This document shows, in pieces, positions 31,258 to 61,600 of a DNA stretch of 64,000 nucleotides. The stretch is from Janthinobacterium tructae. GTDB lineage: Bacteria > Pseudomonadota > Gammaproteobacteria > Burkholderiales > Burkholderiaceae_D. The position numbers and the translations under genes were made by a program. Where the stretch lies: the NCBI RefSeq assembly GCF_006517255.1, contig NZ_CP041185.1, positions 1,488,001 to 1,552,000 of the forward strand, in the 5' to 3' direction. Position 1 is the stretch's first letter, and each line of letters begins with the position of its first letter. The notes below the pieces were generated by a model. The model ran no database searches. It had not been told where the DNA came from and saw only the letters and a list, made by a program, of their open reading frames with translations.

Positions 31258-31312
31258 AAAAAACCCGGGTAGCCATCTACAGCCCATCGCAGCTCTTCGC
31301 GCAGACCGGGTT
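31258..31312 (-). terminator. Rho-independent terminator of the glucosidase gene
   Basis: On the minus strand AACCCGG and CCGGGTT are paired across a loop of about 37 nt and are followed directly by TTTTTT. It lies just past the stop of the GH13 gene. The loop is long, but the T run supports termination. Confidence 0.6.
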
Positions 31313-31328
31313 ATTGCACAACAACGCT

Positions 31329-32987: not shown

Positions 32988-33294
32988 GATTATCTTTCTC
33001 GCTTATTGATTGGCGGCACTGTCTTGCAACGTGCCAAGGGATCGCCATCGGGTGCAAATAGGCAGCCAAGTTGGATCGCACTGTCGCTCCAACACCTAAT
33101 TGACTGTTCGGCACTAGCGTGGCGGAGTACCCGGCCCCTTGCATTCAAGCTTGCATTTCATTCGGGCAATGATAAAAATCATGGTTTTAGACACGTTCGT
33201 TCTCAGGTAACATTTAGCGCCAAACGGTGACAAGCGCGGACGGATAGAGCAAGCAGATACAATGGTTTTGACGGACCGGATTGAAAGATGATAG
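32988..33294. promoter_or_regulatory. Upstream region of the glucosidase gene
   Basis: About 300 bp between the glucosidase start and a broken AraC gene on the other strand. No gene is seen; it should contain the glucosidase promoter. No strong palindrome is visible. Confidence 0.4.
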
Positions 33295-36893: not shown

Positions 36894-37035
36894 ACGCATT
36901 CAGTCTTGCCGTTGGCTGGACCAACTACGTGCGTTCGCGCCACGGGAAAAAGTCTGGACGAGGATAACGGGGTTGACTCACTAATGGTCGATGAGAGGAT
37001 GGTTCATAGCTCATTTTCACGTAAAGGAGACCATC

Positions 37036-38439
37036 ATGGACAAGGAAATCGTCAATCGCTCGCTTGCGCAAGGCGCTCCGCCAACGGTCCTGGGTGAACG
37101 GCCGGCCCGCATTCCCACTGGCGGCACTATCCGCGCCGGCATCAAAGTGCTGACCAAGGCGGCAGCGAGCAATCCGCAAGCGAAAGCGATCTACGAGCAG
37201 GGGCTGGCCTCAAACTGTTCGTTTGAGGAGATCGGACAAAAGATTGCCGAGGCATTCCCGGATATCAAGACACCGCTGGTTCCCAAAAATGTGGCGTGGT
37301 TCACCGTGCGGCCCAATGACTTTCCCAACCCGGCCCTGGCAGCGCAGATTTTGGCGGCCTTTGGCGAGGATCGCGGCGACGGCGTCATCCGGCTGTATCG
37401 TTTTCCGGTTATTTTCCCGGCCGACACCTGGCAATTGGTCATGCCACATGAACTGGCCGCCTGGGCACGCAATGACAAGCGCTACTGGAGCGAATATGCG
37501 TCGGATGGCCATACGCGCTACTGCAAAATGTATGCGCCCGTCCGTTTTGATGAGCGCAGCCAACGCGTGGTTCGCACCTTTGGCGGGCGCCCAGTGCAGC
37601 TACGACCAGAAAACAATGGCGTCTGCGATCCAGAAAACTGCCCGGAATTTCAGAACCGGCAATGCAACCTGACCGGGAAGTTCATTTTCTACATTCCCGG
37701 CATTGCCTCGATCGATGCTTTCGTCCTGCACACGAACAGTTTTTATGCCATGAGCCGCGCCATCGAGCGCTTTGAAACCATCTCGTTCATGCGCGGTGGC
37801 CGCCTCGCCGGCTTCCTCGATCAGCACCGCACGCCCTTCTATTTCAGTAAAAAGCTACGCGATGTCTCCCATATCGATCCCAAAACCGGGCAATCCGTGC
37901 GCAGCGCACACTGGATCATCGAACTGGAAGCACCAATCGATGTCTCTTCCCTCCTGATCCAGCATGACGATGAAAGCGCTTTACACCTGGCCGATCAGGC
38001 CGCCCATATCCTGCAGGGGCAAAAGGAACAACAAGACATTGCCTCAGTGCAGCTCCGCCCCGATGAGGCACTTGAGGTGCCACTGGAGCAACCGGCACAG
38101 AGTGAAGCATCCATGCAGCAGAAAGCGGCCACTGACGCCACGGCATTGGCGCCACCTCAGCAGGCCAACAACTGCGGCGAAGATGACGCAATCCGCACCC
38201 TGTTTGACCTGGCAGCGGCCTATGGTGTAGACCAGGATCAGTTTGGCCTCTTTGCTGACCGCCAGTGGGGAGCGGGCTGGCGACGCAACCCGAACGGCCG
38301 TCAACGCGTGCTGGCGGAACTGGAACGCTATCAGAATGATCCGGAAGGCTTCTGTGAAAAGGTCAACGCCCGCCTGCGCGCGTCGGACACGCCGTCATCC
38401 CGGCCACGCGCTCCAACAGCGCCAGCCAAGGGAGAATAG
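37036..38439 (+). CDS. gp3-like recombination directionality factor / putative metal-binding protein
   Basis: 467 residues, start at 37036 after AAGGAG. Residues about 20-300 resemble the gp3-like directionality-factor proteins often annotated as hydrolase or metal-binding protein: VPKNVAWFTVRPNDFPNP, then IRLYRFPVIFPADTW, a cysteine cluster VCDPENCPEFQNRQCNLTGK (about 195-214) and FYIPGIASIDAFVLHTNSFY. The last 130 residues are a Gln/Ala-rich linker and a small C-terminal domain. It is followed 2 bp later by the SbcD-like gene. This trio is a recurrent module on integrative elements; the role in excision or recombination is inferred from the family name only. Confidence 0.65.
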   Translation: MDKEIVNRSLAQGAPPTVLGERPARIPTGGTIRAGIKVLTKAAASNPQAKAIYEQGLASNCSFEEIGQKIAEAFPDIKTPLVPKNVAWFTVRPNDFPNPALAAQILAAFGEDRGDGVIRLYRFPVIFPADTWQLVMPHELAAWARNDKRYWSEYASDGHTRYCKMYAPVRFDERSQRVVRTFGGRPVQLRPENNGVCDPENCPEFQNRQCNLTGKFIFYIPGIASIDAFVLHTNSFYAMSRAIERFETISFMRGGRLAGFLDQHRTPFYFSKKLRDVSHIDPKTGQSVRSAHWIIELEAPIDVSSLLIQHDDESALHLADQAAHILQGQKEQQDIASVQLRPDEALEVPLEQPAQSEASMQQKAATDATALAPPQQANNCGEDDAIRTLFDLAAAYGVDQDQFGLFADRQWGAGWRRNPNGRQRVLAELERYQNDPEGFCEKVNARLRASDTPSSRPRAPTAPAKGE

Positions 38440-38441
38440 AA

Positions 38442-39680
38442 ATGCGCATCGCTCATTTTTCGGATTTGCACTATGCAGTATCGACCTTGCCCGAGGTCGA
38501 TACGTGCTTCACCTATGCCGTAGACCAGGCAATCGAAAAACAGGCGGAGGTCGCCGTTATTACGGGCGACACCACCGATCATGCCCTGGATGCCCATTCG
38601 CCGGCGTTGATGGCGCTCGCGCGCCAGATCCGGCGCCTGGCCGATCATTGCCCAGTCCTGATGCTGCAAGGGACGTTTTCACACGAACCGCCCGGTACGC
38701 TGGATCTGTTTTCCCTGCTAGGTGGACGTTATCCCATACACGTGGCCAACCGCTTGCAGCAGGTCATCCTCAACAGCCGGCGTGAATGGATGGCCTCCAC
38801 ACACTCGCGCTTCAATGGCAATGACTGGTGCGACACGGACTGCGCCCTCCTCTGCTCGTGCGTTCCGACCATGAACAAGGCGAATTTGGCTGCCAGTGTC
38901 GGTGCGGACCAAGCCGGACAGGCCATGGGGCACTATCTGGCCGACCTCCTGGCCGGCTACGCGCCAGGCAATCTGCTGGCGCGCCAGCGGGGCATACCCA
39001 CCATCGCGCTCTCCCACGGTACCGTGATTGGCTGTATGACAGAGCATGGGGTGCCGATGGCGGGAATGGACCATGAATTTACCGCAGGGGTACTCTTTCA
39101 GGCACAGGCCAATGCATTCATGTTGGGGCATATTCACCTGCATCAGGCGTGGGACCTCAATGGACAGGTGATCGCCTACCCTGGCTCCGTCGGACGCTTG
39201 CATTACGGCGAACAAGGCAATAAGGGTTTCCTGATGTGGGAAGTCACCGCCGACAGCGCTAGCTGCGAACTCGTCGCAACGCCGGCTCGCCGCACGCTGG
39301 AGCTGGCGTTTGCCGGGGCGCCGGAGATGGATGCACTGCACCAATACGTCGCTAGCCACCCCATCGACGGTGCCTGGGTGCGTATCCGCTGGCAGTGCCT
39401 TGAAGAGGAACGCGCCACCATCGACCGCGAAGCGATCACGGCACTGTTTCGTGGCGCGGCAGGCATCAAGCTTGAAGGCCGTGTGATTCCGATCACCCGT
39501 GCCAGAGCGGAGGGAATGGCACGCTGCCATCAACTTGAAGAGCAAGTACGTACCTGGGCACACCAGGTCGATAGGCCAGCCGCACCTCTATTGGCTTGTT
39601 TGGCCCAGTTAGCTATCCACTCACCCGCCGACATTGCTATGGCTGCGCTGTCAACAGAAACAGTTGCTGGCGACGCTTAG
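38442..39680 (+). CDS. SbcD/Mre11-like metallophosphoesterase
   Basis: 412 residues. Calcineurin-type motifs: FSDLHYA (residues 6-12, DxH), ITGDTTDHA (about 39-47, GDxxD), LQGTFSHE (the usual GNHD/E in altered form, with Thr-Phe for Asn), LSHGTV and LGHIHLHQ (about 228-235, GHxH). It should be the nuclease subunit partnering the SbcC-like ATPase downstream. The stop of the previous gene and the start here are 2 bp apart. The altered GNHE motif may change nuclease activity. Confidence 0.82.
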   Translation: MRIAHFSDLHYAVSTLPEVDTCFTYAVDQAIEKQAEVAVITGDTTDHALDAHSPALMALARQIRRLADHCPVLMLQGTFSHEPPGTLDLFSLLGGRYPIHVANRLQQVILNSRREWMASTHSRFNGNDWCDTDCALLCSCVPTMNKANLAASVGADQAGQAMGHYLADLLAGYAPGNLLARQRGIPTIALSHGTVIGCMTEHGVPMAGMDHEFTAGVLFQAQANAFMLGHIHLHQAWDLNGQVIAYPGSVGRLHYGEQGNKGFLMWEVTADSASCELVATPARRTLELAFAGAPEMDALHQYVASHPIDGAWVRIRWQCLEEERATIDREAITALFRGAAGIKLEGRVIPITRARAEGMARCHQLEEQVRTWAHQVDRPAAPLLACLAQLAIHSPADIAMAALSTETVAGDA

Positions 39681-39785
39681 ACCAGCGGATGCAATGCTTT
39701 GCGAAACGGGGCTGTGCAGCCTTGAGGTGCGCATGCTCTGCCTCATACTAAAGATCAACAGACACTTTGATCAGGAGAGATCACC

Positions 39786-42203
39786 ATGCGCCCCCTTTCC
39801 CTCACCTTAACGGGCTTCATCGGCATTCGGGATGGGATGAACAGAGAGACATTGACGCTCGATTTCGAGCGCCTCACGGCCGGCGCCCAGCTGGTGGCCA
39901 TCGTCGGCCCGAACGGACGCGGCAAAACCACCGTATTAGACAATATGACGCCCTATGCGACCATGCCGTCCAAGGCAGGGGCTGACGGCCTTGGCAACTT
40001 TTCCTACTATGACGAGGTGTATTTGCCGCTCAACCGCAAGGAACTCCTGTGGGAAATGTGGGGACAGCGATACCGCACCCAGATCATCATTCGCCTCAAC
40101 GGCAAACGCAGAAGCGAGGCCTACCTGCACCAGCTCTGCGCTGACACATGGCAGCCAGTGCAACTCCCAGACGGTACCGTGTCCGATGGCCGGATGGAGT
40201 CGTACCAACGCTGCGTCGAGGATATCGTCGGACCAGCCGCCACTTTTTTTTCTACGGCATTTTCAGCACAAAACAGGCGCCAACTGGCCCATTACCGCAA
40301 CGCGGAAATCAAAGTACTATTGGCTGACCTGCTTGGACTGGAGCGCGTGCGTACAAAGGGTCTACAGGCTGCGGAGACGGCGAAACTGCTGCGCTGCGGG
40401 CTTTGCGGATTGCAGCAGGAGCGGCGCCTACTACAGCAACAGATCGATGATCATCACGCGCTTTCACGGCAATTGGCCATGCCCGACGGTGCGCTGGATA
40501 CCCTACAATGCCGTAGGCAGGCAGCACTGGCAGCGCTGGATGAGGCCAAAAACTACCTGGCAACACTCAAGGCGAAACAAGCCGTCGCTGCAACCTACGT
40601 GAACCAGCGCCAGCAGCTTAATCAAACACTTCAGTATCTGAGCGATCGCGTGCTGGCAGCCAATCAGCAGATGGACGAGCGCGAACATGACCTCATCGCG
40701 GCTCGCGAGTCCATGACCCAACACATCCTGCAACGGCGGCAAACCCATGCACAGGAGCATCAGGCGGCAACACGCAGGCATGCGAGGCTGCTGTTGCTCA
40801 CCGCCGATCACCTGCGCGTGACCCGCGCCGTTCGGCGGCTGCCGATCCTGGCCCGCCTCGTGGAATACCGCAGCAATCAGGCCGCAACCTGCCGCCAATC
40901 CCATGATCGGTATATGCAGGTAACATCACAGCGTGCGCTGGCCCTGCAAAAGATCGATGGGATCAACAGAGAAATCGGTGAGGCGGTGTGTCAAACCCGA
41001 GCATTGCACCAGCGCCTCTCGCTCACCTCACTCGTTCCCTGCGCGGGAACCGCGCTACAGGGACAATGCCAGCTCCTCGAACACGCCCGTTCAGCACGCC
41101 CCATCATTCCACAGTACGAACACTCCCTGCGCCGACTGGAACACGCACGGCGCCAGCAAGCCGAGGTGCTGTCGCAGCTGGACGCGCACATTGCTGCGAT
41201 GCCGGCCACGGCAGAACGTTTACTAAGGGCAGAGCGCCGCCTGGATCGAACTCGCGCAAAATGCTCAGTCAATCAACAGGTCGCTGCACGCGCCGGCGAG
41301 ATCGAACAGGCACGCACCAGCATCGATGACGTGACGCAGCGCATTCACCTGCTCGCGCAGACAGTCGACGACGAAACAGAAGTCGAAAAGCAGGAAAAAG
41401 CACGCATCGACAGGGAATTGGCAGCTATTACAGGCGAGCGCGCCCGGGTCGCACGGAGTGCGGGCCTGGAACGCGAGTGTATCGAACAGCAACTCTCCGC
41501 TCTTCCGATGCCGTTCGATCCGCTTCGCCTCGTGCAGGCCGATCAGGAAATCGCTCACTTCATGGACCAGTTCGCAGATTGCGAAGCACAACTGCACGAA
41601 GCGACCGGGCGGCAGCACCGCCTTATTGAACTTCAACGCCAGCTGCTGGGGCAACGTCAAACGCTGGCATTGCTGGATGCCCGGATCGCTCATATTGAAG
41701 AGCAGACAACAATCTGGTCTCTGTTCGCCACATGCCTGGGGAACGACGGGGTCATCGCCCTGGCCATCGACGACGCGGGGCCCGCCCTGTCCATGCTCAC
41801 GAATGATTTATTGATGGCGTGCTATGGGCCACGCTTTACGGTATCGATTCGCACGCTGCTCGAATCGGTCAAAGGACAATCCAGGGAAGGATTTGACGTC
41901 ATCGTGCACGACGCCAACACCGGCTTCGCCAAGAGCGCTTCCAAGATGAGCGGAGGCGAACGCGTCTGGATCAACGAATGCCTCACGCGCGCCATGGCCT
42001 TGTATCTGGCCCAGTCCAACTGCCGGCGCAGCGAAACGCTTTTCTCGGACGAAGCAGATGGCGCCTTTGATGCCGAACATAAACGCATGTTCCTTGCCAT
42101 GAAGCGACAGGTCATACAACTGGGTGGCTATCAACAAGAGTTTTTTATCTCACACACGCCAGAGCTGGCCGCATTGGCTGACGCCACCATCGATCTCCTC
42201 TAG
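39786..42203 (+). CDS. SbcC/Rad50-like ATPase
   Basis: 805 residues. Walker A GPNGRGKTTVLDN (about 40-52), Q-loop region, two long coiled-coil arms meeting near the middle at PCAGTALQGQC (about 417-427), a CX8C motif where Rad50 has its CXXC zinc hook, and at the C-terminus the signature KMSGGERVWINECLTRA and Walker B TLFSDEADGAFD. It is shorter than chromosomal SbcC (about 1050). With the SbcD-like protein it would process DNA ends or hairpins, probably in replication or transfer of the island. Confidence 0.85.
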   Translation: MRPLSLTLTGFIGIRDGMNRETLTLDFERLTAGAQLVAIVGPNGRGKTTVLDNMTPYATMPSKAGADGLGNFSYYDEVYLPLNRKELLWEMWGQRYRTQIIIRLNGKRRSEAYLHQLCADTWQPVQLPDGTVSDGRMESYQRCVEDIVGPAATFFSTAFSAQNRRQLAHYRNAEIKVLLADLLGLERVRTKGLQAAETAKLLRCGLCGLQQERRLLQQQIDDHHALSRQLAMPDGALDTLQCRRQAALAALDEAKNYLATLKAKQAVAATYVNQRQQLNQTLQYLSDRVLAANQQMDEREHDLIAARESMTQHILQRRQTHAQEHQAATRRHARLLLLTADHLRVTRAVRRLPILARLVEYRSNQAATCRQSHDRYMQVTSQRALALQKIDGINREIGEAVCQTRALHQRLSLTSLVPCAGTALQGQCQLLEHARSARPIIPQYEHSLRRLEHARRQQAEVLSQLDAHIAAMPATAERLLRAERRLDRTRAKCSVNQQVAARAGEIEQARTSIDDVTQRIHLLAQTVDDETEVEKQEKARIDRELAAITGERARVARSAGLERECIEQQLSALPMPFDPLRLVQADQEIAHFMDQFADCEAQLHEATGRQHRLIELQRQLLGQRQTLALLDARIAHIEEQTTIWSLFATCLGNDGVIALAIDDAGPALSMLTNDLLMACYGPRFTVSIRTLLESVKGQSREGFDVIVHDANTGFAKSASKMSGGERVWINECLTRAMALYLAQSNCRRSETLFSDEADGAFDAEHKRMFLAMKRQVIQLGGYQQEFFISHTPELAALADATIDLL

Positions 42204-42530
42204 TCTCTTGCCTGCACACCGGGCACCATCACGCCGCCCGGCAACCAGCCTGCCAGCGTGGTTTCATTTTCAAGAAATACGGCATCTCACCGGCAGGCAA
42301 TTCTTGTGCAACGCCTACTGCCAATCGCCGTCAACTCTCACGCCCACTCGACTTCACTGCACTAGAATACGTCGGGAAATTTTACAGCTCGGCGTTTTAT
42401 TCGTCTCACAACTATATAAACCGTTGATTAGTCGAGGAAAACTCGGGCGGCACGCAAATTGCTGAGTTCTGCTGCTGCCAGACGATGTCATGCGTTGTCG
42501 TCTCCTTTCCACTTCTCGGACGAGGTACCT
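42204..42530. other. Intergenic region before the exported-protein cassette
   Basis: No gene. CCGGGC and GCCCGG (42219-42224 and 42236-42241) form a small hairpin just after the SbcC stop. The remaining sequence should hold the promoter of the cassette. Confidence 0.4.
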
Positions 42531-43505
42531 GTGAAAAGATTGCACATCCTGTCACGCCACATCGGGCATGGCTTGCTGCTCCTGGCATTGTCTGCGGGTA
42601 TCCTCATCCCCGCGCCAGCTGCAGTCATCAATGTATCAACCACCAGCGCCCATGTTAGCGTCGGACAATCGTTCAACGTGCTGTTCGACGTACGAGGCCT
42701 CTCCAGTGCCGCCAATGACTCATTGAGTGGCTTTGACCTGGATATCGTCTTCGATCCGCTCACCGTGCGCTTGCTCAATGCCAGCTTCTTCGATCCCGCC
42801 AGTGGCACCAACCAGCTCGCATTCAGTGAAGCCGGGAGCTTCGGCTTTATTGGCCAAACCGCAATATCGGGCGGTGTCATTGACCTGTTCGGCATTTCTG
42901 GTAACAGTGCCGGGTTACTTGACGCCCGCCAGAACGATGTTTTTCGCTTTGTAACCCTGACCTTCGAGACGCTGGCAAGCAGCCCAGGCACTTTCATCGG
43001 CGTCAATCTTGCCGATCCGGCACTGCTGTTTACCGACAGCGGTGCTGGCGGGCTGCCCATTGCCTTCGATAACAGCAGCGTTGGGATAGCGATCGGTCCC
43101 ACGGCGGTTCCAGCACCATCCAGTTTTGCCCTCTGCATGGCTGGGATGATTGCCATCCTAGCAACAATAAGGCGCATCCGTGTGGCCATCCTGCGGGCAG
43201 GCGGGATCAGCATCGCTCTGCTCACTTCGCTCGCCATGCCTGCGCAGGCGCAGGCGCAGACCAGCACCAGCACCAGCACCAATACAACGCAACAACAAAC
43301 GACACCGGTCAACCAGGAAGCCATCGATGGCGTCATCACGGCCATCCAAGGCCAGCGGCTCCAGGTACGCCTGAACAGTGGGAAATTAGTGTGGATGACA
43401 AGTACGACTTCCTTATCCTCTTCCCATGTCGGAAAGCGGCTCACTGGTATCGCTGTCCCTGCCGGCGATGGTCTCGTGCTCACCCAGGCCAGGTTCTTCA
43501 ACTGA
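42531..43505 (+). CDS. Cohesin-like domain protein with PEP-CTERM-type anchor and a C-terminal extension
   Basis: 324 residues from GTG (GAGG 6 bp upstream). Signal peptide HGLLLLALSAGILIPAPAA. Residues about 28-185 resemble a cohesin/carbohydrate-binding beta-sandwich: VSVGQSFNVLFDVRGLSS, SGFDLDIVFDPLTVRLL and a repeating FRFVTLTFET pattern. At about 193 begins a PEP-CTERM-like sorting segment, VPAPSSFALCMAGMIAILAT with basic end RRIRV. Unusually the protein continues with a second signal-like stretch (AGGISIALLTSLAMPAQA), an STST/Gln linker and a domain GVITAIQGQRLQVRLNSGKL. It may be two genes fused. Followed by a lipase-like and a dockerin gene. Confidence 0.65.
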   Translation: MKRLHILSRHIGHGLLLLALSAGILIPAPAAVINVSTTSAHVSVGQSFNVLFDVRGLSSAANDSLSGFDLDIVFDPLTVRLLNASFFDPASGTNQLAFSEAGSFGFIGQTAISGGVIDLFGISGNSAGLLDARQNDVFRFVTLTFETLASSPGTFIGVNLADPALLFTDSGAGGLPIAFDNSSVGIAIGPTAVPAPSSFALCMAGMIAILATIRRIRVAILRAGGISIALLTSLAMPAQAQAQTSTSTSTNTTQQQTTPVNQEAIDGVITAIQGQRLQVRLNSGKLVWMTSTTSLSSSHVGKRLTGIAVPAGDGLVLTQARFFN

Positions 43506-43530
43506 GCGATCTACTTCAACGGAGACAGCA

Positions 43531-44994
43531 ATGCGATCCAACCTGACCATGTTAGTACTGAGTTTGTCGCTCGGGCTTTCCGGCCGTTCCTCGCTCGCTC
43601 AGAACAGCTCGCCATTCCCACCGCCAACGGAAACACTGGGCACCTATGTCGTCAATAGCGGTCCAGGACTTGATACCGGCTGCACCTTTCGGGGAGCGGG
43701 ACCACTGCGCATTACCATTCCAGTGCCCAAGCTGATCAACGATCGGGAATTGAACGCCGATGGCACCTTGCGCGACCCGTCCCGATTGGTTGCCAACGGC
43801 GTGGTCTCGGCCCAGGCAACCATACGCTTTCCCGTGTACGACATTGATGACCAGGCCGCTCCCGGAGGCGGTATCGCACCGGAGGTTGACCGCGTGTCGT
43901 TCAATGCACGATTTAAAAAAGTACTGGCCGGATTTAACAATACTTGGACGGACGACACGATCTTTGTCCCGATCGAGGAAATCAAATTTGGGCAAAACAA
44001 CACGCTGCAGATCGATATCGATACTGCGAACGCCGGTGGAGGAGAATACTGGTGCATGGCGGTCGACTGGGTATCGATCGAATTCGAAGCCACGCCCCCG
44101 TATATCCTGCAACACGGTATCAGCGCCAATCTGTCCACGTGGGACGAAGCCAGTGCAGCTGGTGTGCTCCGAGCACTCAATGAGCGCGGCGTGCTCTTTA
44201 CGCGCTTCTCACTTGGCGCCGGCGCGGCAGGCAATGGCTCCGCCGCGGCCAACGCTATCGAACTGAACAATCTCATCACCACCTTTCTGGCGCCATTGAA
44301 GGCAGATAAGGTCCATGTGATCGCCCACAGCAAGGGAGGACTGGATACACAAGCGCTGCAGGCGCTTGGACCGGAATTTACCCTCGTTTCGTTGTCGACG
44401 TTATCCACTCCGCATTTAGGAAGCGTCGCGGCCGATCTGTCCGTCGTTCAGAAGACCGCTGCAGATGAGAAACGCAATAGTGGCGCGGATCCTGATGGCT
44501 ACGTTGCACAATACGTCGATACCTGGACCTTTGGCAAGGGACCTCAGTTTCCAGGCTTGTCCGACTTGACGACGTATGCCGCGACCGCCGCACTGAGTAC
44601 CGGCCAGCGCGACAATATTCCCAACACCTACACCATTGGCGCCGACGCTGACCTCAATCATGACAATCTGTTGACATTCAATGAGTCGACGCCATTATTT
44701 CCCTATGAGCAGGTGCACTATGCAGCGATCCGCACCTGGCAAGTACTGCGTGACTTTACCTCTGCGCACATGACGTTATCCACCATCCCGGGCAAATACT
44801 GGGGTACCAGAACCGTCCTGACCTATGTCGCGGTCGTCGCTCCGGCACCACAGCTGAACGACATTGTCGTCACGGAAGATTCCGCCAATCCCGGCTACGG
44901 CACGCCGGTAATCAACGTGGGCGCTAACCATTCCACCGTCAAGAGCGGCGCGAACATCGAGCGCATTCTGGACCTCACCATCCCGCTTAAATAA
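43531..44994 (+). CDS. Exported lipase-like alpha/beta hydrolase
   Basis: 487 residues. Signal peptide MRSNLTMLVLSLSLGLSGRS with cleavage near SLAQ. The first 165 mature residues form a beta-rich domain of unknown type (GCTFRGAGPLRITIPVP). The hydrolase part begins with the oxyanion motif ILQHGISANLSTWDEA (about 191) and has the nucleophile elbow VIAHSKGGLDTQAL (about 264-277, Ser in HSKGG), as in PGAP1/lipase-class serine esterases, then STPHLGSVAADLS. Start at 43531 after GGAGACAG; the longer frame upstream overlaps the previous gene. Substrate unknown. Confidence 0.8.
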   Translation: MRSNLTMLVLSLSLGLSGRSSLAQNSSPFPPPTETLGTYVVNSGPGLDTGCTFRGAGPLRITIPVPKLINDRELNADGTLRDPSRLVANGVVSAQATIRFPVYDIDDQAAPGGGIAPEVDRVSFNARFKKVLAGFNNTWTDDTIFVPIEEIKFGQNNTLQIDIDTANAGGGEYWCMAVDWVSIEFEATPPYILQHGISANLSTWDEASAAGVLRALNERGVLFTRFSLGAGAAGNGSAAANAIELNNLITTFLAPLKADKVHVIAHSKGGLDTQALQALGPEFTLVSLSTLSTPHLGSVAADLSVVQKTAADEKRNSGADPDGYVAQYVDTWTFGKGPQFPGLSDLTTYAATAALSTGQRDNIPNTYTIGADADLNHDNLLTFNESTPLFPYEQVHYAAIRTWQVLRDFTSAHMTLSTIPGKYWGTRTVLTYVAVVAPAPQLNDIVVTEDSANPGYGTPVINVGANHSTVKSGANIERILDLTIPLK

Positions 44995-45006
44995 CCTGGA
45001 GCTGCA

Positions 45007-46674
45007 ATGAAGACGATCATACAAGCGTTGGTGCATGCAATGCGATGCCGGACAGGTACCTGGCACCTATGGGGGGTATCGTTCCTGCTTGCCGCAAGCA
45101 TGTCACTGTCGTATGCCCAGAATGTCCCGGTCGCACTCAATCTGCCCACCAGCGTAAGTGGCGATATCGTTCCCGGCATGACTGCGCTCGATTTGCCATT
45201 TGTCGTACAGGGCGCGGATGGTTTGGCGCTCGATGTCATCGTGCCTGTCAACGGTGCCAGAATGAGTCTGATTGACCCCACCGGCGCCGCCGTACTGGTT
45301 CCCAATGATTCCCGCCTCACGTACCATCCTGGCAGCCAACTCACACCACCCTTGCCCGGTGGCGTCTTCACCCTAGCCGAACTTCCCGCCCCGTCAAACG
45401 GCACCTGGATTCTACGCCTGACATTCCCGGCCGCGCACAACAGAACCGTGGCCATGGCAACGGTGCGCGCCCGCTCGCGCTACCAGGTCGGCATCGCAAT
45501 CGAACGTACGACCTTGCTGGCCGGCGAGGATGTCGCCATTGGCATGATCGCACTCGATAACGGCACACCAATCCGCGGTCTGCTCTCCTCAATCAGTGTT
45601 GGCCAGGGCACGCCGGGCCAAGCCATTGCCGCGCACGACAATGGACAGCAGCCTGACGGGCTCGCCGACGATGGGGTCTACACCATCGACTATACCTTTG
45701 CCACTGCCGGTACCTACGATATTCTTGGTTCAGTTGAAATCCAGACACCGGAAGGGCCGATACAGCGTACGGCAGTTTCGCAGGTTCGCGTCATCAATCC
45801 ACTGCTCAGTGCGGGCAGCAGTGCCTTTAACGTCGTGCGTAGTGCTGGCAACTGCGTCAGCGGACTGCAAGTATCGCAAAATTTCAATGTGCTGGAAGCA
45901 GCCACGTATGCCACCTTGATACGGCTACGCGCGCCGAACGGCAAAACCATCGACATCCGTAAATCCAGACTGCTCCCACTAGGGGCCGCCAGCGTCACGG
46001 CGCTGTTCGATGCCAAAACAATTCGACAAACGCTGGCCAGCGACGGCCCGTACAGCGTCGCGCTAATTGAAAGCCTGCGGGTCGGCGCATCCGAATTGAC
46101 CCTGGGTTTTCGCAAGCGCGATGCCGGGATCTTCAATGTCACGCTGGAGGATCTGTGCACGGAACCAATTGTCTTGCAACAGCAGCTGACCATGACACCA
46201 GTCATCGAGCAAGGCTACATTGCGTCGTTCGACGTCGCCTTCCCGATACAAGTGAGTTCTCCCGGCTTTTATCAGATATCCTTCAAAGTTGTGGGACAAC
46301 ATGGAGAAGATATCGCCCTCTTCAATGCTTCGCGCTCGCTTGCAGCTGGCGTCAACACGGTTGTCGTCAACATTCGCTCCGAGAAATTCCTTGCCGTTGA
46401 TGGGCCGTACCGGGCGCTCTCGCTCGTCGTGGTAGGGGGAGGCAATAGCGCGCGGCTCACGTCGATAGGAACCAGCGACACCTATTCCCGCTGGCAATTT
46501 TTGCCTAGTAAAAATGGCGATCTCAATAACGATGGCAGCGTTGACGGTGCCGACATGGCATTGGTGACACAGTATCGGGGATTGCGGGCCGCTATTCCCG
46601 GCGATCGCAGGGATATCAACCGCGATGGCATCATTGATATCAGGGATGCAAGGGCGCTCCAGACCTTGCGCTAA
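45007..46674 (+). CDS. Exported multidomain protein ending in a type I dockerin
   Basis: 555 residues. A long N-terminus leads to the hydrophobic signal GVSFLLAASMSLSYAQ. The middle resembles bacterial adhesin/beta-sandwich repeats, including a choice-of-anchor type domain (SRYQVGIAIERTTLLAGEDV; DGLADDGVYTIDYTF, an Asp-rich loop seen in FlgD/CARDB-like Ig domains). The last 55 residues contain two F-hand calcium repeats, GDLNNDGSVDGADMALV (about 503) and RDINRDGIIDIRDARAL (about 534), a dockerin pair. It is 12 bp downstream of the hydrolase gene, so the cohesin-like protein at 42531 is the natural partner. Confidence 0.75.
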   Translation: MKTIIQALVHAMRCRTGTWHLWGVSFLLAASMSLSYAQNVPVALNLPTSVSGDIVPGMTALDLPFVVQGADGLALDVIVPVNGARMSLIDPTGAAVLVPNDSRLTYHPGSQLTPPLPGGVFTLAELPAPSNGTWILRLTFPAAHNRTVAMATVRARSRYQVGIAIERTTLLAGEDVAIGMIALDNGTPIRGLLSSISVGQGTPGQAIAAHDNGQQPDGLADDGVYTIDYTFATAGTYDILGSVEIQTPEGPIQRTAVSQVRVINPLLSAGSSAFNVVRSAGNCVSGLQVSQNFNVLEAATYATLIRLRAPNGKTIDIRKSRLLPLGAASVTALFDAKTIRQTLASDGPYSVALIESLRVGASELTLGFRKRDAGIFNVTLEDLCTEPIVLQQQLTMTPVIEQGYIASFDVAFPIQVSSPGFYQISFKVVGQHGEDIALFNASRSLAAGVNTVVVNIRSEKFLAVDGPYRALSLVVVGGGNSARLTSIGTSDTYSRWQFLPSKNGDLNNDGSVDGADMALVTQYRGLRAAIPGDRRDINRDGIIDIRDARALQTLR

Positions 46675-46733
46675 GCGTGCACTTATTAGCTTCTGGACGT
46701 GCCATCGCTTGACGGCCGGTGCCTGGACGATCA

Positions 46734-46765
46734 GGGATGGTGAGCGACCTGCAGCTCACCATCCC
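46734..46765. terminator. Strong hairpin after the dockerin gene
   Basis: GGGATGGTGAGC, an 8-nt loop, GCTCACCATCCC: a perfect 12-bp stem, 60 bp past the stop codon. No T run follows; a short tandem TCCCCAATACG repeat does. It lies between convergent genes, so it may stop or stabilise transcripts from both sides. Confidence 0.6.
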
Positions 46766-46845
46766 CAATACGTCCCCAATACGCCTATGCGCCACCACCG
46801 CTGCAGGTATCTTGTGCAAATGATTTTCCCAGTCTACCTACATGC

Positions 46846-47238
46846 TCAAGACGCACCCGCAAATCGTGTGACAAGGTGAGCCACCCTGTTTCGCCGCTCG
46901 CACATCCGCCTTTGACGAAGCTGATTTCTCCAACACATACCATCTACGGTTTTGGCACAATCACACGTCCATCCGCCATGAGCACGGCATAACCGCATTT
47001 CGGCTGCCGTCTTGGCGAGACGGATACCTTCCAGCCACAGTTCCTGCAGCGACTCATTGAATAGAAACACCAGCGGCATTTCCTCCCTTCCGTCGAAGTA
47101 GTCTTCGTAGCCTAAGTGCAGAGCTGCCCGAAATGCTTCCAGGTGCACAAGCTCACCGCTACCGGGTCGCCATTTTTCAGTTGCTTCGATATATTTCTGA
47201 ACTACGGCCAGGCCGTGCACCTCATCAGCACCGTCCAT
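46846..47238 (-). CDS. Small protein, possible RMF-like fold, paralogue of the next gene
   Basis: 130 residues, start at 47238 (MDGADEVHG) since GGAGG lies 5 bp upstream; it overlaps the end of the upstream gene. The segment YEDYFDGREEMPLVFLFNES and LQELWLEGIRLAK parallels YDDYKRGNEKVPRLF and DAWLMGFAQA in the neighbouring gene. The pattern of an aromatic/Gly start, a central Pro and a closing W-x-x-G helix recalls ribosome modulation factor, but at low similarity. The C-terminal part is Cys- and Arg-rich. Confidence 0.6.
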   Translation of the reverse strand: MDGADEVHGLAVVQKYIEATEKWRPGSGELVHLEAFRAALHLGYEDYFDGREEMPLVFLFNESLQELWLEGIRLAKTAAEMRLCRAHGGWTCDCAKTVDGMCWRNQLRQRRMCERRNRVAHLVTRFAGAS

Positions 47239-50056: not shown

Positions 50057-51667
50057 TTACGAAACGTGCATCTGTTTGGCGAGCGAATGCATTACGGTGG
50101 TGGCCCAGCCGTGAATGAGGTTCGTACAGCGCGCGACGCCAGCGCCGCCAGGAGAGAACTCACTAACGGTACCCACACCATGTTCAAACAGAAACGCAGA
50201 ATTATCGAGGTGCGGGACATCGGCAATTGCCGGCAGCAAAAGAAGGCAGAAAGCGGCACGCATGCGGTTCACTCGTAGAGCATCATGATAAATATGTGCA
50301 GACTCCATTGCTTCGAGCACATTTTCCCGGTGGCGACGATACTTTGCGTCCAGAACAATGAATTCGCATTTTTCACCGGAGACAATTCCAATCACAACAT
50401 CGGGAATTCGCAGACCAGATAGACACCATCCCCTATTCTCGGCTGTGTTCCCATCACCAGCAGGAAAACGTGCCTGAAAATGTACCTCCATGCGAACGTG
50501 TTGATCCAGTTGCATCACATAGGATTCGTCAGCAGTGACTATCCCCCGTTTCGTCGTTCGGCTTAGCCTACCGCTAAACACTTGAGAAATTCTTGCTAGA
50601 AGATGGACCATACACCAGGCCTCATACACCCCCCACGTTGGCCTGACCGGTAACTGGTCCTGTTCATTATCACCAGTAGTGCCAAGCCAAAGTGCTTTTG
50701 TTCCACTCCGATAAGCGCCACTGTATGCTGGCTGGGCGGCAATTTGTGTTAGTCCACCGGCAGACGCGTTGGTGCATGCTGCACTGGCAAAGGGCTCAAG
50801 CAGAAGGAAAACTTTGAGCTTTTCCAGAATCATTTGCAATGCGCGTTCCCTACGCGGCCGGCGCTGCTCCTGTTCCTGTTTATCTCCTCCCAGCTTGTGT
50901 TCCTGGACGACGGCCAGTAGCGAAGTGGTCTGCGCCAACATCCTTTTGATGAGAGATTTGAGGGCGCGGTTGGATGGTGTATCAAAGGTAGGATTTACCA
51001 CCGGACTCGTGACATACAATGTATCGATGAACTCGGCATGTTTTGTGGCATCCATAGCAATGGCAGCAATACGTGGTTGACGCAAGGCAGAGGAATGCAG
51101 ACGCTTTGCTTGGGATAGCAAAATGGGGCGGGTGCTCTGCTGAAGCGTTCTATGCGGCGCGTTGGTGATCGGTTGAAGTTGGCGCAAAAAAAGAGGGGCA
51201 TATGCGTTAATTCTCGCAAGCCTTACAAGCGCATCAAGCTTGCTCGCGCTCGTCTCCTCGTCAAAACCCAAGGTCGCGCCTGAGTTGTCGAGCAATAAGG
51301 AGGCACGAAAGCATCGAATCTCGCTCACCATCGCCTCATATTGCGCATCAGACAGCTTTTTCTCCGATGAACCAATGTGTACATGAAAAACAAACTCGGC
51401 CACCTCACTTACTACTACCGCTAACTGAACTGTTCCCGACAAAAAGCTAGGTATCCATTGATATAGGCCATCCTTGTTCGCATAAACTTCGACGTCGTCC
51501 ACGAAAACCTGCGAGGGTACAGCATCCAGTACCGTAAAAATGCAGCTCTCGCGCTCCCTCAATCCGTAAATGATACTACCCGGTAAATAGATCTCCGGTG
51601 GCGCTGATGCGCCATCAAGTGAGACTGATAGTTGAGGAACAGTCACTTCGCTATTCCAGCTGGTCAT
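50057..51667 (-). CDS. McrC-like nuclease subunit (DUF2357 plus PD-(D/E)XK)
   Basis: 536 residues. The N-terminal half resembles DUF2357; the C-terminal nuclease has RIPDVVIGIVSG and EFIVLDAKYRRHRE (PD...DxK, residues about 416-445). The ATG at 51667 overlaps the stop of the McrB-like gene (ATGA), indicating coupled translation. Together they form a type IV-like restriction system that cleaves modified foreign DNA. The longer frame upstream lies inside the McrB gene. Confidence 0.8.
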   Translation of the reverse strand: MTSWNSEVTVPQLSVSLDGASAPPEIYLPGSIIYGLRERESCIFTVLDAVPSQVFVDDVEVYANKDGLYQWIPSFLSGTVQLAVVVSEVAEFVFHVHIGSSEKKLSDAQYEAMVSEIRCFRASLLLDNSGATLGFDEETSASKLDALVRLARINAYAPLFLRQLQPITNAPHRTLQQSTRPILLSQAKRLHSSALRQPRIAAIAMDATKHAEFIDTLYVTSPVVNPTFDTPSNRALKSLIKRMLAQTTSLLAVVQEHKLGGDKQEQEQRRPRRERALQMILEKLKVFLLLEPFASAACTNASAGGLTQIAAQPAYSGAYRSGTKALWLGTTGDNEQDQLPVRPTWGVYEAWCMVHLLARISQVFSGRLSRTTKRGIVTADESYVMQLDQHVRMEVHFQARFPAGDGNTAENRGWCLSGLRIPDVVIGIVSGEKCEFIVLDAKYRRHRENVLEAMESAHIYHDALRVNRMRAAFCLLLLPAIADVPHLDNSAFLFEHGVGTVSEFSPGGAGVARCTNLIHGWATTVMHSLAKQMHVS

Positions 51668-53931
51668 CGCCAGAATCTCGCCGTTCCAGTTTCCTTCAGA
51701 TCGTCGATCAGGACGGACAATTTTGCTGTGCATCTTGCCAGGCCATGCTCCGACAATATTGCGCAAGCAGACGAAAGCGCACGATGAAACCTCACCGTAT
51801 TCTCCCCTCGAAGCTTTGGCAGCACCTTCGCATAAATCACCGCATCCAACGCATCTTGCTCAGTAGACCCTGCCTCAACGGCGAAGCTCAAGTAACGTAA
51901 AACGTCCTCGACAGTTCTCCATCCAAAATGCAAGCGAACTGGCGCGAGAGCACAACCCAAATCAATGAGAAGTTTTTTTGTGGAACTATGCAGCCTTGTG
52001 GACAATGAAAATCGATCCCATCCGGGAAAGTCTTCGACATTGATATTCCAAAACTCCAAAGTGAAAGCACGATCGAGTATTTTGTCAGACAAGCCGTGTG
52101 TCGTCTCATCCATATTTAATGTGCCGATGATCGCCAAGTTCGCCGGGTAGCGGATTCGTTGTGGCACATTGGTGACATCTTCCGGTAGATCGTGTAAATC
52201 AATCCATCCCCCTGTTTCCATCGCCGAAAGCATCGGAGCAAGATACTGTTCTGGATGCGATAAGTTCATCTCATCAAGGATGACTACGTAGGGGTGCATC
52301 GGGTCATCGGCTGCACTTATCAATATATCAAGAAATGGCGCTGTACTATAACGCTGGGTCAACGGGCTCACGTAGCCAAGAAGTGGCGAAGAGTCGTACC
52401 AGGCAGGCTGAACAGGAATCACACGAGTTCGATCTAGTTCGCCACGGCTGCTGCCCGTAACAGCAAGTCCATAGTTAAGCGCAAGCTGAGTTTTTCCGGA
52501 TCCCGAAATCCCTGTCAGTACGGCAAAATGGCGTAGCGGCTGACTCCACAAACCACTATGTAGTTGACGCACCAGGTCATCAGGAAAAACGAGCTTTGCC
52601 TCGACAATATGTTGGATTCGCTGTTGTACCATAGAAAAACTTGGAATCTGAACTGCAACATTGTTCGAAGTACCAGATAATTGCACTTCAGGATGATCGA
52701 TTGAGATCGATTCAGGTGCCCAAGTGACTCTGCTCGCCCACGCCTCACCACGCACGCTTAACTGGTATCGTCCTACCGAGTCTTGCTCAAGAAGATCAAG
52801 ACTCGTCAACCACGTAATCATGGAGCGTGGCATGAAATCTGATGTCCAGCCCGGATTGATACTTTTGATCTTTGCAATGAAGTCGACGAGCGCTAGCGGC
52901 CCCCTTTCGAGAAGCTTGATCGCATAATCGACGCCAAGAATCCGGGTGAGTAAATGATCGGCTAACTCATCAGGATCACGCGTCTCGAGCAGATTTAAAC
53001 CCCGCGCATTAAGGGTATAAATTGCTCCATCATAGACACACAGATCGAACTCTCTCGCAACCGTGTTAATAACGATGCCAACGCTGGACGGTGCTAGACT
53101 AGGGTTGCTGCGTCGTACTTCGTCTGCAAACTCTTCACGCGACAAACCATCTTGCAGGAGTGGCACGAGTTCAAGAAGTGTACTGAAATAGCCTTTTATA
53201 GATGTCAGACCTTTCCGACGAATGGCTGCAGGAAGCGGTCGCATTTCTGACAGAGAGTCGACTCCCGTGACATCGATTTCGCTAGCCGGCGCGGCAAGTG
53301 CCTCCTTGGTGATGTACTCATACAGAGACCAAGGAAGACAAAGGCGGTCGAGGTCTGCATCTGGTAGGTTTGGATCAACAGGGCCGAGTAAATTGTCGAG
53401 CCGACGTTTAATCGCGAGATGTGCATGAACTGGATGTGCATTGGATTTGCCGCCCAGTGCACGATGCAAGAATTGTAGACTACCCACATCTGCGATCGTT
53501 GTGAACTGTTGCGGAAAGCGCGCGCACATGACTCGATTCAGCTTCAAACGTGCCACCCGGTCACATTTTTGGCGCAGATTTCTCTCGATCTCCTTGTATA
53601 GCCTAATTAGAAATCCCTCGACCTCAGCTTCGTCAGCTGGCAGGGTAGTGCTAAACGCCTGACTAAACCATTCACGGAAGGAAGGATCATCGAGTGCAGG
53701 GCCTAGCTTCACGCTTCCCATTCCAGTCGACGCGACAGAATCATCCTCCCACAGCTTCTCCAAAAATTCGCGATTCATTAGCTCTTCTTGCGTGCTATCT
53801 TTCGCGCGCGCCAGTTGCAGCCGCAATCTCCGATACCAAGGTCTCGCTTCACTCTTTGTTTCAGCTAACACGGCATCAACTGTTTCTTTCAATGCAGCGT
53901 CTGAGACCAGATCGAAGTTGTTACTTTTCAT
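51664..53931 (-). CDS. McrB-like AAA+ GTPase/ATPase
   Basis: 755 residues. AAA+ motor in the last 300: Walker A TGISGSGKTQLALNYG (about 470), Walker B VVILDEMNLSHPEQYLAP (about 545), and IGTLNMDETTHGLSDKILDR (about 603), the McrB-type sensor and arginine finger. The 450-residue N-terminus is much longer than McrB's DNA-binding domain and includes winged-helix-like parts (RRKGLTSIKGYFSTLLELVP; RGPLALVDFIAKI), which would read the target DNA. First gene of the pair; divergent from the nuclease-peptidase gene at 54204. Confidence 0.85.
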   Translation of the reverse strand: MKSNNFDLVSDAALKETVDAVLAETKSEARPWYRRLRLQLARAKDSTQEELMNREFLEKLWEDDSVASTGMGSVKLGPALDDPSFREWFSQAFSTTLPADEAEVEGFLIRLYKEIERNLRQKCDRVARLKLNRVMCARFPQQFTTIADVGSLQFLHRALGGKSNAHPVHAHLAIKRRLDNLLGPVDPNLPDADLDRLCLPWSLYEYITKEALAAPASEIDVTGVDSLSEMRPLPAAIRRKGLTSIKGYFSTLLELVPLLQDGLSREEFADEVRRSNPSLAPSSVGIVINTVAREFDLCVYDGAIYTLNARGLNLLETRDPDELADHLLTRILGVDYAIKLLERGPLALVDFIAKIKSINPGWTSDFMPRSMITWLTSLDLLEQDSVGRYQLSVRGEAWASRVTWAPESISIDHPEVQLSGTSNNVAVQIPSFSMVQQRIQHIVEAKLVFPDDLVRQLHSGLWSQPLRHFAVLTGISGSGKTQLALNYGLAVTGSSRGELDRTRVIPVQPAWYDSSPLLGYVSPLTQRYSTAPFLDILISAADDPMHPYVVILDEMNLSHPEQYLAPMLSAMETGGWIDLHDLPEDVTNVPQRIRYPANLAIIGTLNMDETTHGLSDKILDRAFTLEFWNINVEDFPGWDRFSLSTRLHSSTKKLLIDLGCALAPVRLHFGWRTVEDVLRYLSFAVEAGSTEQDALDAVIYAKVLPKLRGENTVRFHRALSSACAILSEHGLARCTAKLSVLIDDLKETGTARFWR

Positions 53932-54203
53932 GCTTATCCTGAAATGAGGGTTGGTGAAACAACATATGCTTAACGTTGCGAAAAAATTCTGTCACTTGCT
54001 GGTCTGCACTGACGTATAAATGAAATTCTGTGGATTAATTGCGACACCAAATGTACTACTTTAAGGAAATTTCACGCTGAAGAATGTAGGATTAGCGATT
54101 TGAAAATCAACCATCAGGGCCCTGCCCCATACACCTTTCCTAGTTTTCCTTAGAAACAGATACGATACTAAAAAATCTGTCTAAAACGCAACCGATTGCT
54201 CGA
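53932..54203. promoter_or_regulatory. Divergent promoter region between the McrB-like and nuclease-peptidase genes
   Basis: AT-rich 272 bp. ACAGAT (54156-54161) and ATCTGT (54175-54180) make a dyad close to the right-hand gene. Two promoters are expected here. Confidence 0.5.
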
Positions 54204-55565
54204 ATGAATACTACACTGAAGGGTGACCTACTCGAAGGATACATCTTCGACCTTTTTTCGCAACAGATCGCTGCCGGCGATTTTTGGGGCAATGCAAAAA
54301 ACTGCAAAATATTTCAAAAAAAAGGCTATTACTCAAAGGATCGCGAAAAAAATATCATATTCGATGTATCGATCGAGTTCTACTTGCCTGGCGCCTCGCA
54401 ATATTCGCTCGTAACTTTTATTGAATGTAAAAATTATTCACACTCCGTTTCGGTCGATGATGTAGAGGAATTTTTCACGAAAACTCAGCAAGTAGCTGCT
54501 TCAAACTCCAAAGCCATTATAGCTAGTACCGCTTCATTTCAGTCAGGAGCAATGACGTTTGCGCGATCTAAAGGAATTGGACTGCTCCGTTATTTTGACA
54601 GCTCAAACTTCAAATGGGAGCTAAACCGTTCGCCTTCCACCAGTGCCTACTCAGATGTGAACACTTCATACGACATGATACTCGACGGACTTTCGGTTCC
54701 AGACTTCGTCAGTAACGTTTTCGATCTCTACATGCAGTCACCCGCAGGTCTGACAAATTCCGCCTGGGATTTCTTCGAAAAACTGCTAAACGATACAAAT
54801 ATTCCATCTGAAAAACTAGACAGCATACGCAACCAAAAAGGCAGACCTAGTCCACTGGTGCCATTTCTCGAACAAGCAATCCTGGAAAAGCGAAGTCTCT
54901 CGATCCTACGCGATATTGGCTACCAGGATGGCGAGGTATCACTGCATGCGATCTGCGCCCGCGAAGCTACACAGTGCGGCCTGGTGGTTAAGAGAACTGC
55001 TCACTTAGAACATCCGCACTCGAGAAATACGATATTGGGACAGATCTGCTTCGCACCACTCGAAATCCGTCTGTACGACCAACCGATATTGAACTCAGGA
55101 CGAGAGCGATTTACGCTCGCACATGAACTTGCGCACCACTTTCTGGGACATTCCAAATATATGTTTAGGGAAGTGTGTGAGGAGGATGATTTCGCGCTCC
55201 CGCGCACCGGAAGTACCTTGGAACCCGATATTGCAAGAATCGAGTACCAGGCCAATATTTTTGCCTCCTGCCTGTTAATGCCCAAGGACGGCTTCGTACA
55301 AAATTTTGCAAGAATCACGCAATGGTTGGGTATCGCAAATAGAGGATTCGGGGCTCTTTACGTAGATGATCAGCACTGCAATCAACAACACTACCTGAAG
55401 GTGACTCACGAATTAATGGGCCACTACGGCGTCTCACGCGCGGCTGCAAGCATTCGCCTCGAGAGTCTAGGCTTGCTCCGGTTCTATCGTGCCGAGCCCC
55501 ACCCGCAACTACACCCCCTTCAGGAGTTTTTCGACCAACTACTCAACACGGGCGTTGACGACTAA
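54204..55565 (+). CDS. Restriction-endonuclease-like domain fused to an ImmA/IrrE metallopeptidase
   Basis: 453 residues. The N-terminal about 150 contain a PD-(D/E)XK core of Mrr type: IIFDVSIEFYLP (Asp about 53), VTFIECKNYSHSVSVDDVEE (ExK about 73-75), then KAIIASTASFQSGAMTFARS. The C-terminal part has the ImmA/IrrE peptidase with TLAHELAHHFLGH (HEXXH at about 307) and IEYQANIFASCLLMP. ImmA/IrrE peptidases normally cleave a repressor in response to DNA damage. It faces away from McrB and shares its promoter region. Low GC relative to the surroundings. Confidence 0.8.
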   Translation: MNTTLKGDLLEGYIFDLFSQQIAAGDFWGNAKNCKIFQKKGYYSKDREKNIIFDVSIEFYLPGASQYSLVTFIECKNYSHSVSVDDVEEFFTKTQQVAASNSKAIIASTASFQSGAMTFARSKGIGLLRYFDSSNFKWELNRSPSTSAYSDVNTSYDMILDGLSVPDFVSNVFDLYMQSPAGLTNSAWDFFEKLLNDTNIPSEKLDSIRNQKGRPSPLVPFLEQAILEKRSLSILRDIGYQDGEVSLHAICAREATQCGLVVKRTAHLEHPHSRNTILGQICFAPLEIRLYDQPILNSGRERFTLAHELAHHFLGHSKYMFREVCEEDDFALPRTGSTLEPDIARIEYQANIFASCLLMPKDGFVQNFARITQWLGIANRGFGALYVDDQHCNQQHYLKVTHELMGHYGVSRAAASIRLESLGLLRFYRAEPHPQLHPLQEFFDQLLNTGVDD

Positions 55566-55635
55566 GCAGCCAACGGGCCATCATCCATATGTACATAGCC
55601 GTTGCTCTCTCAACAGATGTATCGGTTTCACTGAC

Positions 55636-55992
55636 TTAGCGAATACCATGTTTTTCGTCAGATAATCTTGCAAGTAACCTGAAGCGCTCACGCACCAATT
55701 GATTAAAACAGCGCATGAATTCTCCACCATCGTCACAAGTCACGATCACATGCTTTTCCAGACGACCACATCGCGAGACGCGCCGCGTGTCAGCAATCAC
55801 GCACGATGTGTGACTGAAATTGCAGATAACAAACGGCCGCCCCTCGACCGGCGCATCATAGTAAGCTTGCGCCGCGAGGCAGGCATCGTGCATTTCGATG
55901 CCCTTGCGCCCGCTTTTCTCAATCACCGTGTAGGTTGATCCGGCCGTCCGGCATGCTCGCAGCAACTGGCGGCTCTCCGCATTCAGTTCCAT
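55636..55992 (-). CDS. Protein of unknown function
   Basis: 118 residues, MELNAESRQLLRACRTAGST onward, containing IVTCDDGGEFMRCFNQLVRE. It overlaps the end of the Mrr-like gene by about 10 bp and so belongs to the same transcript. Four to five cysteines, no family recognised. Confidence 0.6.
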   Translation of the reverse strand: MELNAESRQLLRACRTAGSTYTVIEKSGRKGIEMHDACLAAQAYYDAPVEGRPFVICNFSHTSCVIADTRRVSRCGRLEKHVIVTCDDGGEFMRCFNQLVRERFRLLARLSDEKHGIR

Positions 55993-56690
55993 ACCATCTT
56001 CCCCGCGCGCCTCCCCAATACCAGTTGCACGAGACTCGCGCCGCTGACCAGCACCACGTTGCTTTTGGTCAGATGGGGATACACGGCCGCGCCGCTGCGC
56101 CCGGTATGTAGGAATAATCCCGCCCCAACACCATGATCACAAATGGCCTCGCCAAAGGCCGCCACGTGTTGATGGTTCACATGGCCGCAATAGCGCTTCG
56201 ACTGCACCGCATACCAACCATGCCCAGGCAACCACACCTTGCCGTCAATCCCGCCATCCCCGGAGTACCTCTGGTTGCGCAAGACAAATAGCCCGGCGTC
56301 TTCCAGGGCCGAGAGCACCACTTCTTCGAACACCAGCGGATCCACACTGCGCAAATAAGCCAGGCACCGTGCCGCGTACCCCTCCCCTGTGAACTGCCTC
56401 ACAGCCTGCAACACCGCACGCGATTGAGCAATACGCCTGCGATGGTCTGGCAGCCGGCGCATGCGCATCGCATTGAACAACTGCGACGCACATCGAAACA
56501 GCATGCCGCTCACACCGCGTGATCGGGCCAGAACGGCTTCATAGCGCTCGCGCGCAGGACGCGGGGCACGGGAGCCGCCAGGTTTTCCATCCTCGATTCG
56601 CTCTTCTCTACCATCACCGGCCACCGTGTGCTTGACCCACCGCGCACGCGGATTTCCTGACGACCAACGCTGCCAATGTCCCCGTTTCAT
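55983..56690 (-). CDS. Mrr-like restriction endonuclease
   Basis: 235 residues. Mrr_cat pattern in the C-terminal half: VDPLVFEEVVLSALEDAG, YSGDGGIDGKVWLP (catalytic Asp in GDGGID, about 146) and YAVQSKRYCGHV (Q-x-K, about 160), then FLHTGRSGAAV. The N-terminal 90 residues are basic. Start overlaps the integrase stop (ATGA), so it is translated with the integrase, an unusual pairing that ties defence to the island's mobility gene. Confidence 0.82.
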   Translation of the reverse strand: MKRGHWQRWSSGNPRARWVKHTVAGDGREERIEDGKPGGSRAPRPARERYEAVLARSRGVSGMLFRCASQLFNAMRMRRLPDHRRRIAQSRAVLQAVRQFTGEGYAARCLAYLRSVDPLVFEEVVLSALEDAGLFVLRNQRYSGDGGIDGKVWLPGHGWYAVQSKRYCGHVNHQHVAAFGEAICDHGVGAGLFLHTGRSGAAVYPHLTKSNVVLVSGASLVQLVLGRRAGKMVWN

Positions 56691-61443: not shown

Positions 61444-61600
61444 AACGTGCACGAAGCGCTTCATTGCCCGATATCGGGTTTCCTTGCCCCTCCGTACTCA
61501 TCCTGTTTCCTGAATGATTAGATATTGCGACTTCGCAATACCTTTCTTGCTGTGCCCGCTAAAGTCGTTGTTAACGCACTGCAAAGGCAACGAAAGACTC

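Follow-up and report, generated by a model that had tools for sequence, protein, structure and literature searches.

We describe here a compact unit of three genes, A, B and C, in the window, by which we mean the whole 64,000-nucleotide stretch of Janthinobacterium tructae DNA that was analyzed (positions 1488001-1552000 of contig C1 of G000, a one-contig genome of 6.31 Mb). The three open reading frames (ORFs) follow one another on the forward strand: gene A (42531..43505; 324 amino acids (aa), with a GTG start), gene B (43531..44994; 487 aa), which encodes a putative exported lipase-like alpha/beta-hydrolase, and gene C (45007..46674; 555 aa), which combines Ig-like domains with a dockerin. 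A sequence-only reading of this DNA had described three consecutive genes with signal peptides, separated by 25 base pairs (bp) between A and B and 12 bp between B and C, and these positions were confirmed exactly; signal-peptide-like N-termini were likewise recognized by eye in A (residues about 1-31), B and C.

The first domain of A (42615..43100, residues about 29-190), which had been taken for a cohesin-like sandwich, was borne out as a predicted fold. AlphaFold2 modeled it as a cohesin beta-sandwich with a predicted local distance difference test score (pLDDT) of about 92, and searches with this model by Foldseek and VIA matched cohesins, the best being type II cohesins and CaCohA2. The model contains a single cohesin domain. 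A search of a collection of genome contigs with A added one weak relative, L002, with 33% identity over residues 1-153, and a relative from Massilia sp. METH4 is already named a cohesin domain-containing protein in one database source.

The dockerin of C (46513..46671, residues 503-555) is established at the level of sequence. It consists of two 12-residue calcium-loop repeats, as had been proposed, and scores 31.8 bits with PF00404 against a cut-off of 22.9 (E 1.6e-7), while the model places a helix after each loop (residues 514-522 and 545-554). Both loops were present in 28 of 31 aligned rows according to our own loop pattern. Between the signal-peptide-like N-terminus and the dockerin lie Ig-like beta domains (residues about 45-490), including a choice-of-anchor X match (NF041940, 37.9 bits against a cut-off of 25), and relatives of C are already named choice-of-anchor X proteins in the database. 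Within G000, Dockerin_1 matches nothing but C at E<=0.001, and no Dockerin_1 match was found in 20 relatives (12 from the same genus and eight from other families, none of them Massilia-type).

Gene B aligned with the Burkholderia-type lipase 1ys1_X over residues 190-306, the nucleophile region (phmmer, E 1.1e-6). Residues S267, D444 and H467 were invariant in all 25 aligned rows (19 of 120 listed database rows, the window and five loci), and they form a candidate Ser-Asp-His triad in the family order, the Asp and His being assigned from ND-x-VV and NH motif positions that we take to be those of the Burkholderia lipase. B is therefore described as a putative lipase-like hydrolase. It differs from these lipases in having about 170 further N-terminal residues, an AHSKGG elbow and an EF-hand-like loop, DLNHDNLLTFNE, which was found by pattern in 20 of the 25 rows.

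To follow the inheritance of the trio, 392 genomes of the family were searched for each of the three proteins; at most 5 (A), 4 (B) and 3 (C) first-look candidates were scored in a genome, such that further copies within one genome could be missed. Full-length A, B and C were each found in six genomes, and these were the same six (G000, G375, G235, G314, G372 and G309), with the genes contiguous and in the same order. Across them the A-B gap ranges from 17 to 29 bp and the B-C gap from -4 to 36 bp. The three genes thus occur together in five genomes besides that of the window, and both gene order and co-inheritance are direct observations. A was found in 21 genomes in all, 15 of them with partial matches, and C in nine, three of them partial. 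Within this sample no other genome of the window's genus contained B, and B was found in its own genome only among 399 genomes of the order (E<=1e-15) and, for its alignment, among 360 genomes of the class (E<=1e-30). In the database, 20 of 50 C homologues share the exact size of the longest contig with one of 120 listed B homologues, compared with a mean of 0.44 and a maximum of 3 by chance at 100 shifted lengths, and three of these sizes also occur among 16 matches of A; B and C are therefore linked more widely than A can be traced.

A second pairing of the same kind was seen in G309 (L094:6644-10340), where an M12B reprolysin with a dockerin (2e-10) is followed by a protein of 192 aa that has a cohesin match (6.7e-10) and, near its end, a PEP-CTERM segment (9.2e-7, residues 162-185). 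G309 thus has dockerin proteins of two unrelated kinds, each next to a PEP-CTERM-type cohesin, which suggests that such pairs may serve to tether exported proteins in these bacteria. Elsewhere in G309, a match to the cohesin profile PF00963 lies near a secretin-like ORF (L090:938-3286; name by eye), and PF00963 matches in G235 and G314 fall in open frames of comparable size (779-800 aa). An extra Dockerin_1 match in G235, G314 and G375 was partial, covering profile positions 19-52 of 57; in G235 and G375 (L100:6091-7296 and L099) it falls in a 401-aa glycerophosphodiesterase-like protein (name by eye) with a single calcium loop, and was not counted as a dockerin.

The architecture of A beyond the cohesin domain is unusual. 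Here the window copy carries VPAPSS, a hydrophobic stretch and RRIR (43107..43181, residues about 193-217), which together make up a degenerate PEP-CTERM-type segment with PAP as its motif. This is followed by a second signal-peptide-like stretch (43182..43250, residues about 218-240), which is hydrophobic and ends in AQA-Q, by a Thr/Gln-rich linker, and by a 60-residue beta-rich domain (43317..43502, residues 263-324) with five predicted strands and a pLDDT of about 86, which is conserved in relatives. The double layout is kept in all six trio genomes, where 121-152 residues lie between the motif and the end (131 in window A); the five other copies are 39.6-48.5% identical to window A (best local match). 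A hydrophobic stretch and basic cluster were found in all six (Kyte-Doolittle 15-residue maximum 1.99-2.61, with RR), and the PEP-CTERM profile PF07589 matched 16 of the 21 A-family rows at E up to 0.1, its matches in relatives of A lying at residues about 190-215. The PEP-CTERM-type segment noted in the sequence-only reading is thus present, with a hydrophobic stretch and an arginine pair, but in none of the six genomes does it lie at the extreme C-terminus: a second signal-like stretch and a beta domain come after it. As an exosortase substrate, A is therefore non-standard.

An AxA-[QK]-type site closes the second hydrophobic stretch in 17 of the 18 full-length A rows. Ten of the 18 rows are the window's own copy together with database entries that are at least 91% alike, which leaves about nine independent lineages. 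Such an ending is the usual signature of signal peptidase I. A frameshift or other artefact behind the double architecture was rejected because in all six genomes the reading frame runs uninterrupted across both segments. An independent internal start for the tail was also considered: in the window there is a GTG at codon 218 of A with TAAGG upstream, and GTG or TTG occurs in the scanned stretch of G375, G235 and G314, but such a start is not conserved, since G372 and G309 show only CTG. Of the 15 partial relatives of A, the three that were inspected (L029, L030 and L031) have the cohesin-like and PEP-CTERM parts, and their frames end within about 15 residues after the arginine cluster. The simplest history would be that a cohesin/PEP-CTERM gene was fused to a gene for a small secreted protein, and the fusion, which is conserved, has been kept since.

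These observations lead us to propose, at a rough probability of 0.55, that the trio is a small exported docking system in which the cohesin of A tethers C via its dockerin, B being a product of the same gene set. A would be a cohesin tethered to the membrane or surface, into which the calcium-loaded dockerin of C would plug, and C would in this way be held at the envelope. B would be a secreted lipase-like hydrolase acting with A and C, and C would be the likeliest protein to hold or assist it, given that B lacks a dockerin and the two genes stay linked. The binding of A to C, the part played by calcium, the tethering, the attachment of B and any cleavage of A are steps that we infer from the features described above.

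Several results weigh against docking. The PF00963 profile finds no match in window A, and in the A family it reaches E up to 0.1 in five of 21 rows, the best of which (E 0.0016, 19.1 bits) falls below the cut-off of 24.1. Type I dockerins have Ser-Thr at loop positions 10-11, where the loops of C have GA and IR, and PF00404 reaches E<=0.001 in the C protein of five of the six genomes, that of G309 showing both loops by pattern only. Among eight genomes scanned, PF00963 finds seven places (two in G235, three in G309 and two in G314), with a control set that was also matched in E. coli and Methanosarcina, and no match in G000, G136, G372, G375 or G089; of the two places that were examined, one, in the G309 pair, lies beside a dockerin and the other by the secretin-like ORF, and therefore cohesins without a neighboring dockerin exist or may exist in these three genomes. 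In B a Pfam scan found no dockerin match, and nothing ties B and C physically; the earlier idea of a complex that holds the hydrolase is accordingly not supported, C being the only docking candidate. An alternative is that A is a generic adhesin-like sandwich and the dockerin of C a mere calcium-binding tail, with no mutual affinity between them. We regard this as improbable, given the cohesins retrieved with the model of A, the two-loop dockerin of C and the joint inheritance of the genes in six genomes.

The location of A is a separate question, and the two rivals that concern it are both compatible with docking. A has the look of a single ORF encoding two exported proteins, or else of a membrane hairpin: since the internal, PEP-CTERM-derived transmembrane segment is succeeded by a second export signal and then by a beta domain, the chain should cross the inner membrane again, after which it would be either cut or kept as a hairpin, with both parts in the periplasm. 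We tentatively entertain the possibility that A is a natural export polyprotein, in which the cohesin would be released or handed on at the internal PEP-CTERM site and a second, beta-domain protein would be released by signal peptidase, coupled to cohesin-dockerin docking of a non-cellulosomal kind. The retention of the AxA-Q site favors cleavage of A. In the hairpin alternative, which we consider rather unlikely, the PEP-CTERM segment would have lost its sorting role by decay and be left as no more than a transmembrane helix, the second hydrophobic stretch would stay uncleaved, and the cohesin and the tail would both sit on the periplasmic face, making the complex periplasmic and not surface-exposed. 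The motif itself bears on this, being PAP in the window copy, which favors a hairpin there, and AEP in G309, whereas PEP is intact in the other four trio genomes (G375, G235, G314 and G372); moreover, a permanent helix would not need the AxA-[QK] ending that is so widely kept.

Distance from the end speaks in the same direction as the altered motif. The 131 residues from motif to end in window A compare with 27-37 residues from match start to end in all 24 PF07589 matches of G000, among which window A is absent. Haft et al. (2006; PMC1569441) report that in 87% of PEP-CTERM proteins the domain is followed by fewer than ten residues, and they suggest that proteins with much longer tails may not function and that atypically placed examples are more variable and perhaps without function; this, like the Pro-Ala-Pro in place of Pro-Glu-Pro, counts against sorting of A by the PEP-CTERM route. 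Canonical exosortase display, with A cut at the PEP motif and shown at the surface, where it would hold C and, via C, the lipase, is consistent with the exosortase family PF09721, found over its cut-off in all six trio genomes, and with the frequent PF07589 matches in the A family and the 24 others in G000. A check for an exosortase had been called for, and it returned two family matches in G000. Nonetheless, the PAP of the window copy, which lies outside those 24 matches, and the internal position of the segment in every genome make standard display unlikely. A may end up either displayed by exosortase or as an inner-membrane hairpin.

The genomic setting differs between the window and the other five genomes. 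In the latter, the trio occupies one chromosomal site, flanked by a cpdB-like gene on one side and by lysS on the other (names by eye); a search of the window and of the G000 flanks L095, L096 and L112 gave neither of these two genes. In the window the trio is preceded by a Gp3-like gene and an SbcD/SbcC-like pair, with an Integrase_1 protein encoded at a distance of about 10 kilobases (kb) and an actin-like partition protein at 12 kb. Horizontal gain of the trio in this genome is likely. The suggestion that the trio is carried by a mobile element is thus supported in G000 by neighbors like those of mobile elements, but not in the other five genomes with their single chromosomal site. A cassette on plasmids or viruses is unsupported: a plasmid collection gave no match for the A protein, the B protein or the trio DNA, and viral contigs held no relative of B.

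Other features of the region were also noted. The Gp3-like recombination directionality factor adjoins the SbcD/SbcC-like pair, which is diverged (36991-42203), and had no match among phage records. Downstream lie a defence-like cluster (50057-57814) with a DUF2357/PDDEXK-type nuclease, a 755-aa weakly McrB-like protein, an IrrE/Mrr-like fusion, an Mrr-like nuclease and the Integrase_1 protein; the actin-like (ALP_N) partition protein near the integrase, a plasmid-like gene within the chromosome (58751-60025); and a VgrG-like protein with Phage_GPD, Gp5 and OB domains (61514-63760). Upstream, an alpha-amylase gene unit of about 1.74 kb (31310-33047) recurs elsewhere at 95-97% identity with sharp ends, inverted at C1:1568647-1570305 of G000, on two contigs of G262 (one of them plasmid-sized), and in G285, G136 and G179, and looks like a short mobile cassette. 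An Rfam search of 42000-47200 gave no match. At the trio region there were five promoter-like sites, compared with 2.4 (sd 1.4) in shuffles, and four terminator-like sites, compared with 3.9; no conclusion is drawn from either.

Cohesins, dockerins, PEP-CTERM segments and lipases are each known. The trio shares with the type II and type I cohesin-dockerin pairs of cellulosomes the cohesin fold, the two-loop dockerin and signal-peptide-like N-termini on both partners. A cellulosome, however, has a scaffoldin with several cohesins and enzymes that bear dockerins, whereas the trio has one cohesin domain without scaffoldin repeats, its hydrolase has no dockerin match, and its dockerin is attached to consecutive Ig-like domains instead of an enzyme; in a Pfam scan, A, B and C of the window had no carbohydrate-binding match. 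A resembles PEP-CTERM/exosortase proteins in its N-terminal signal, PEP-like motif, hydrophobic stretch and arginine cluster, and in the presence of exosortase-family genes, but departs from them in the internal position of the segment, the PAP and what follows. The L094 pair of G309 likewise sets a dockerin protein beside a cohesin with a PEP-CTERM segment, but it comprises two genes, its dockerin is on a metallopeptidase and its segment lies near the true C-terminus (162-185 of 192). B resembles the Burkholderia-type lipases (1ys1) in the sequence of its nucleophile region, and C, unlike the DUF4785 protein lpg0956 (4kh9) and choice-of-anchor X proteins, continues with beta-sandwich sequence and a dockerin.

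In the open-licence literature we found no description of this combination of genes, or of a second export signal downstream of a PEP-CTERM-type segment, and no such trio in titles or abstract openings among the matches listed. To our knowledge, little has been established about what cohesins and dockerins do outside cellulosomes. The trio provides a compact, co-inherited cohesin/dockerin operon in Massilia-type bacteria, and since the only Dockerin_1 match of G000 lies one gene away from its likely partner, the question of docking can be tested in a single strain. A in turn offers a conserved natural case for what exosortase requires, and bears on whether a single chain can give rise to two mature exported proteins in bacteria; if it is indeed a polyprotein, it would break, and do so in a conserved way, the rule that PEP-CTERM segments lie at the extreme C-terminus.
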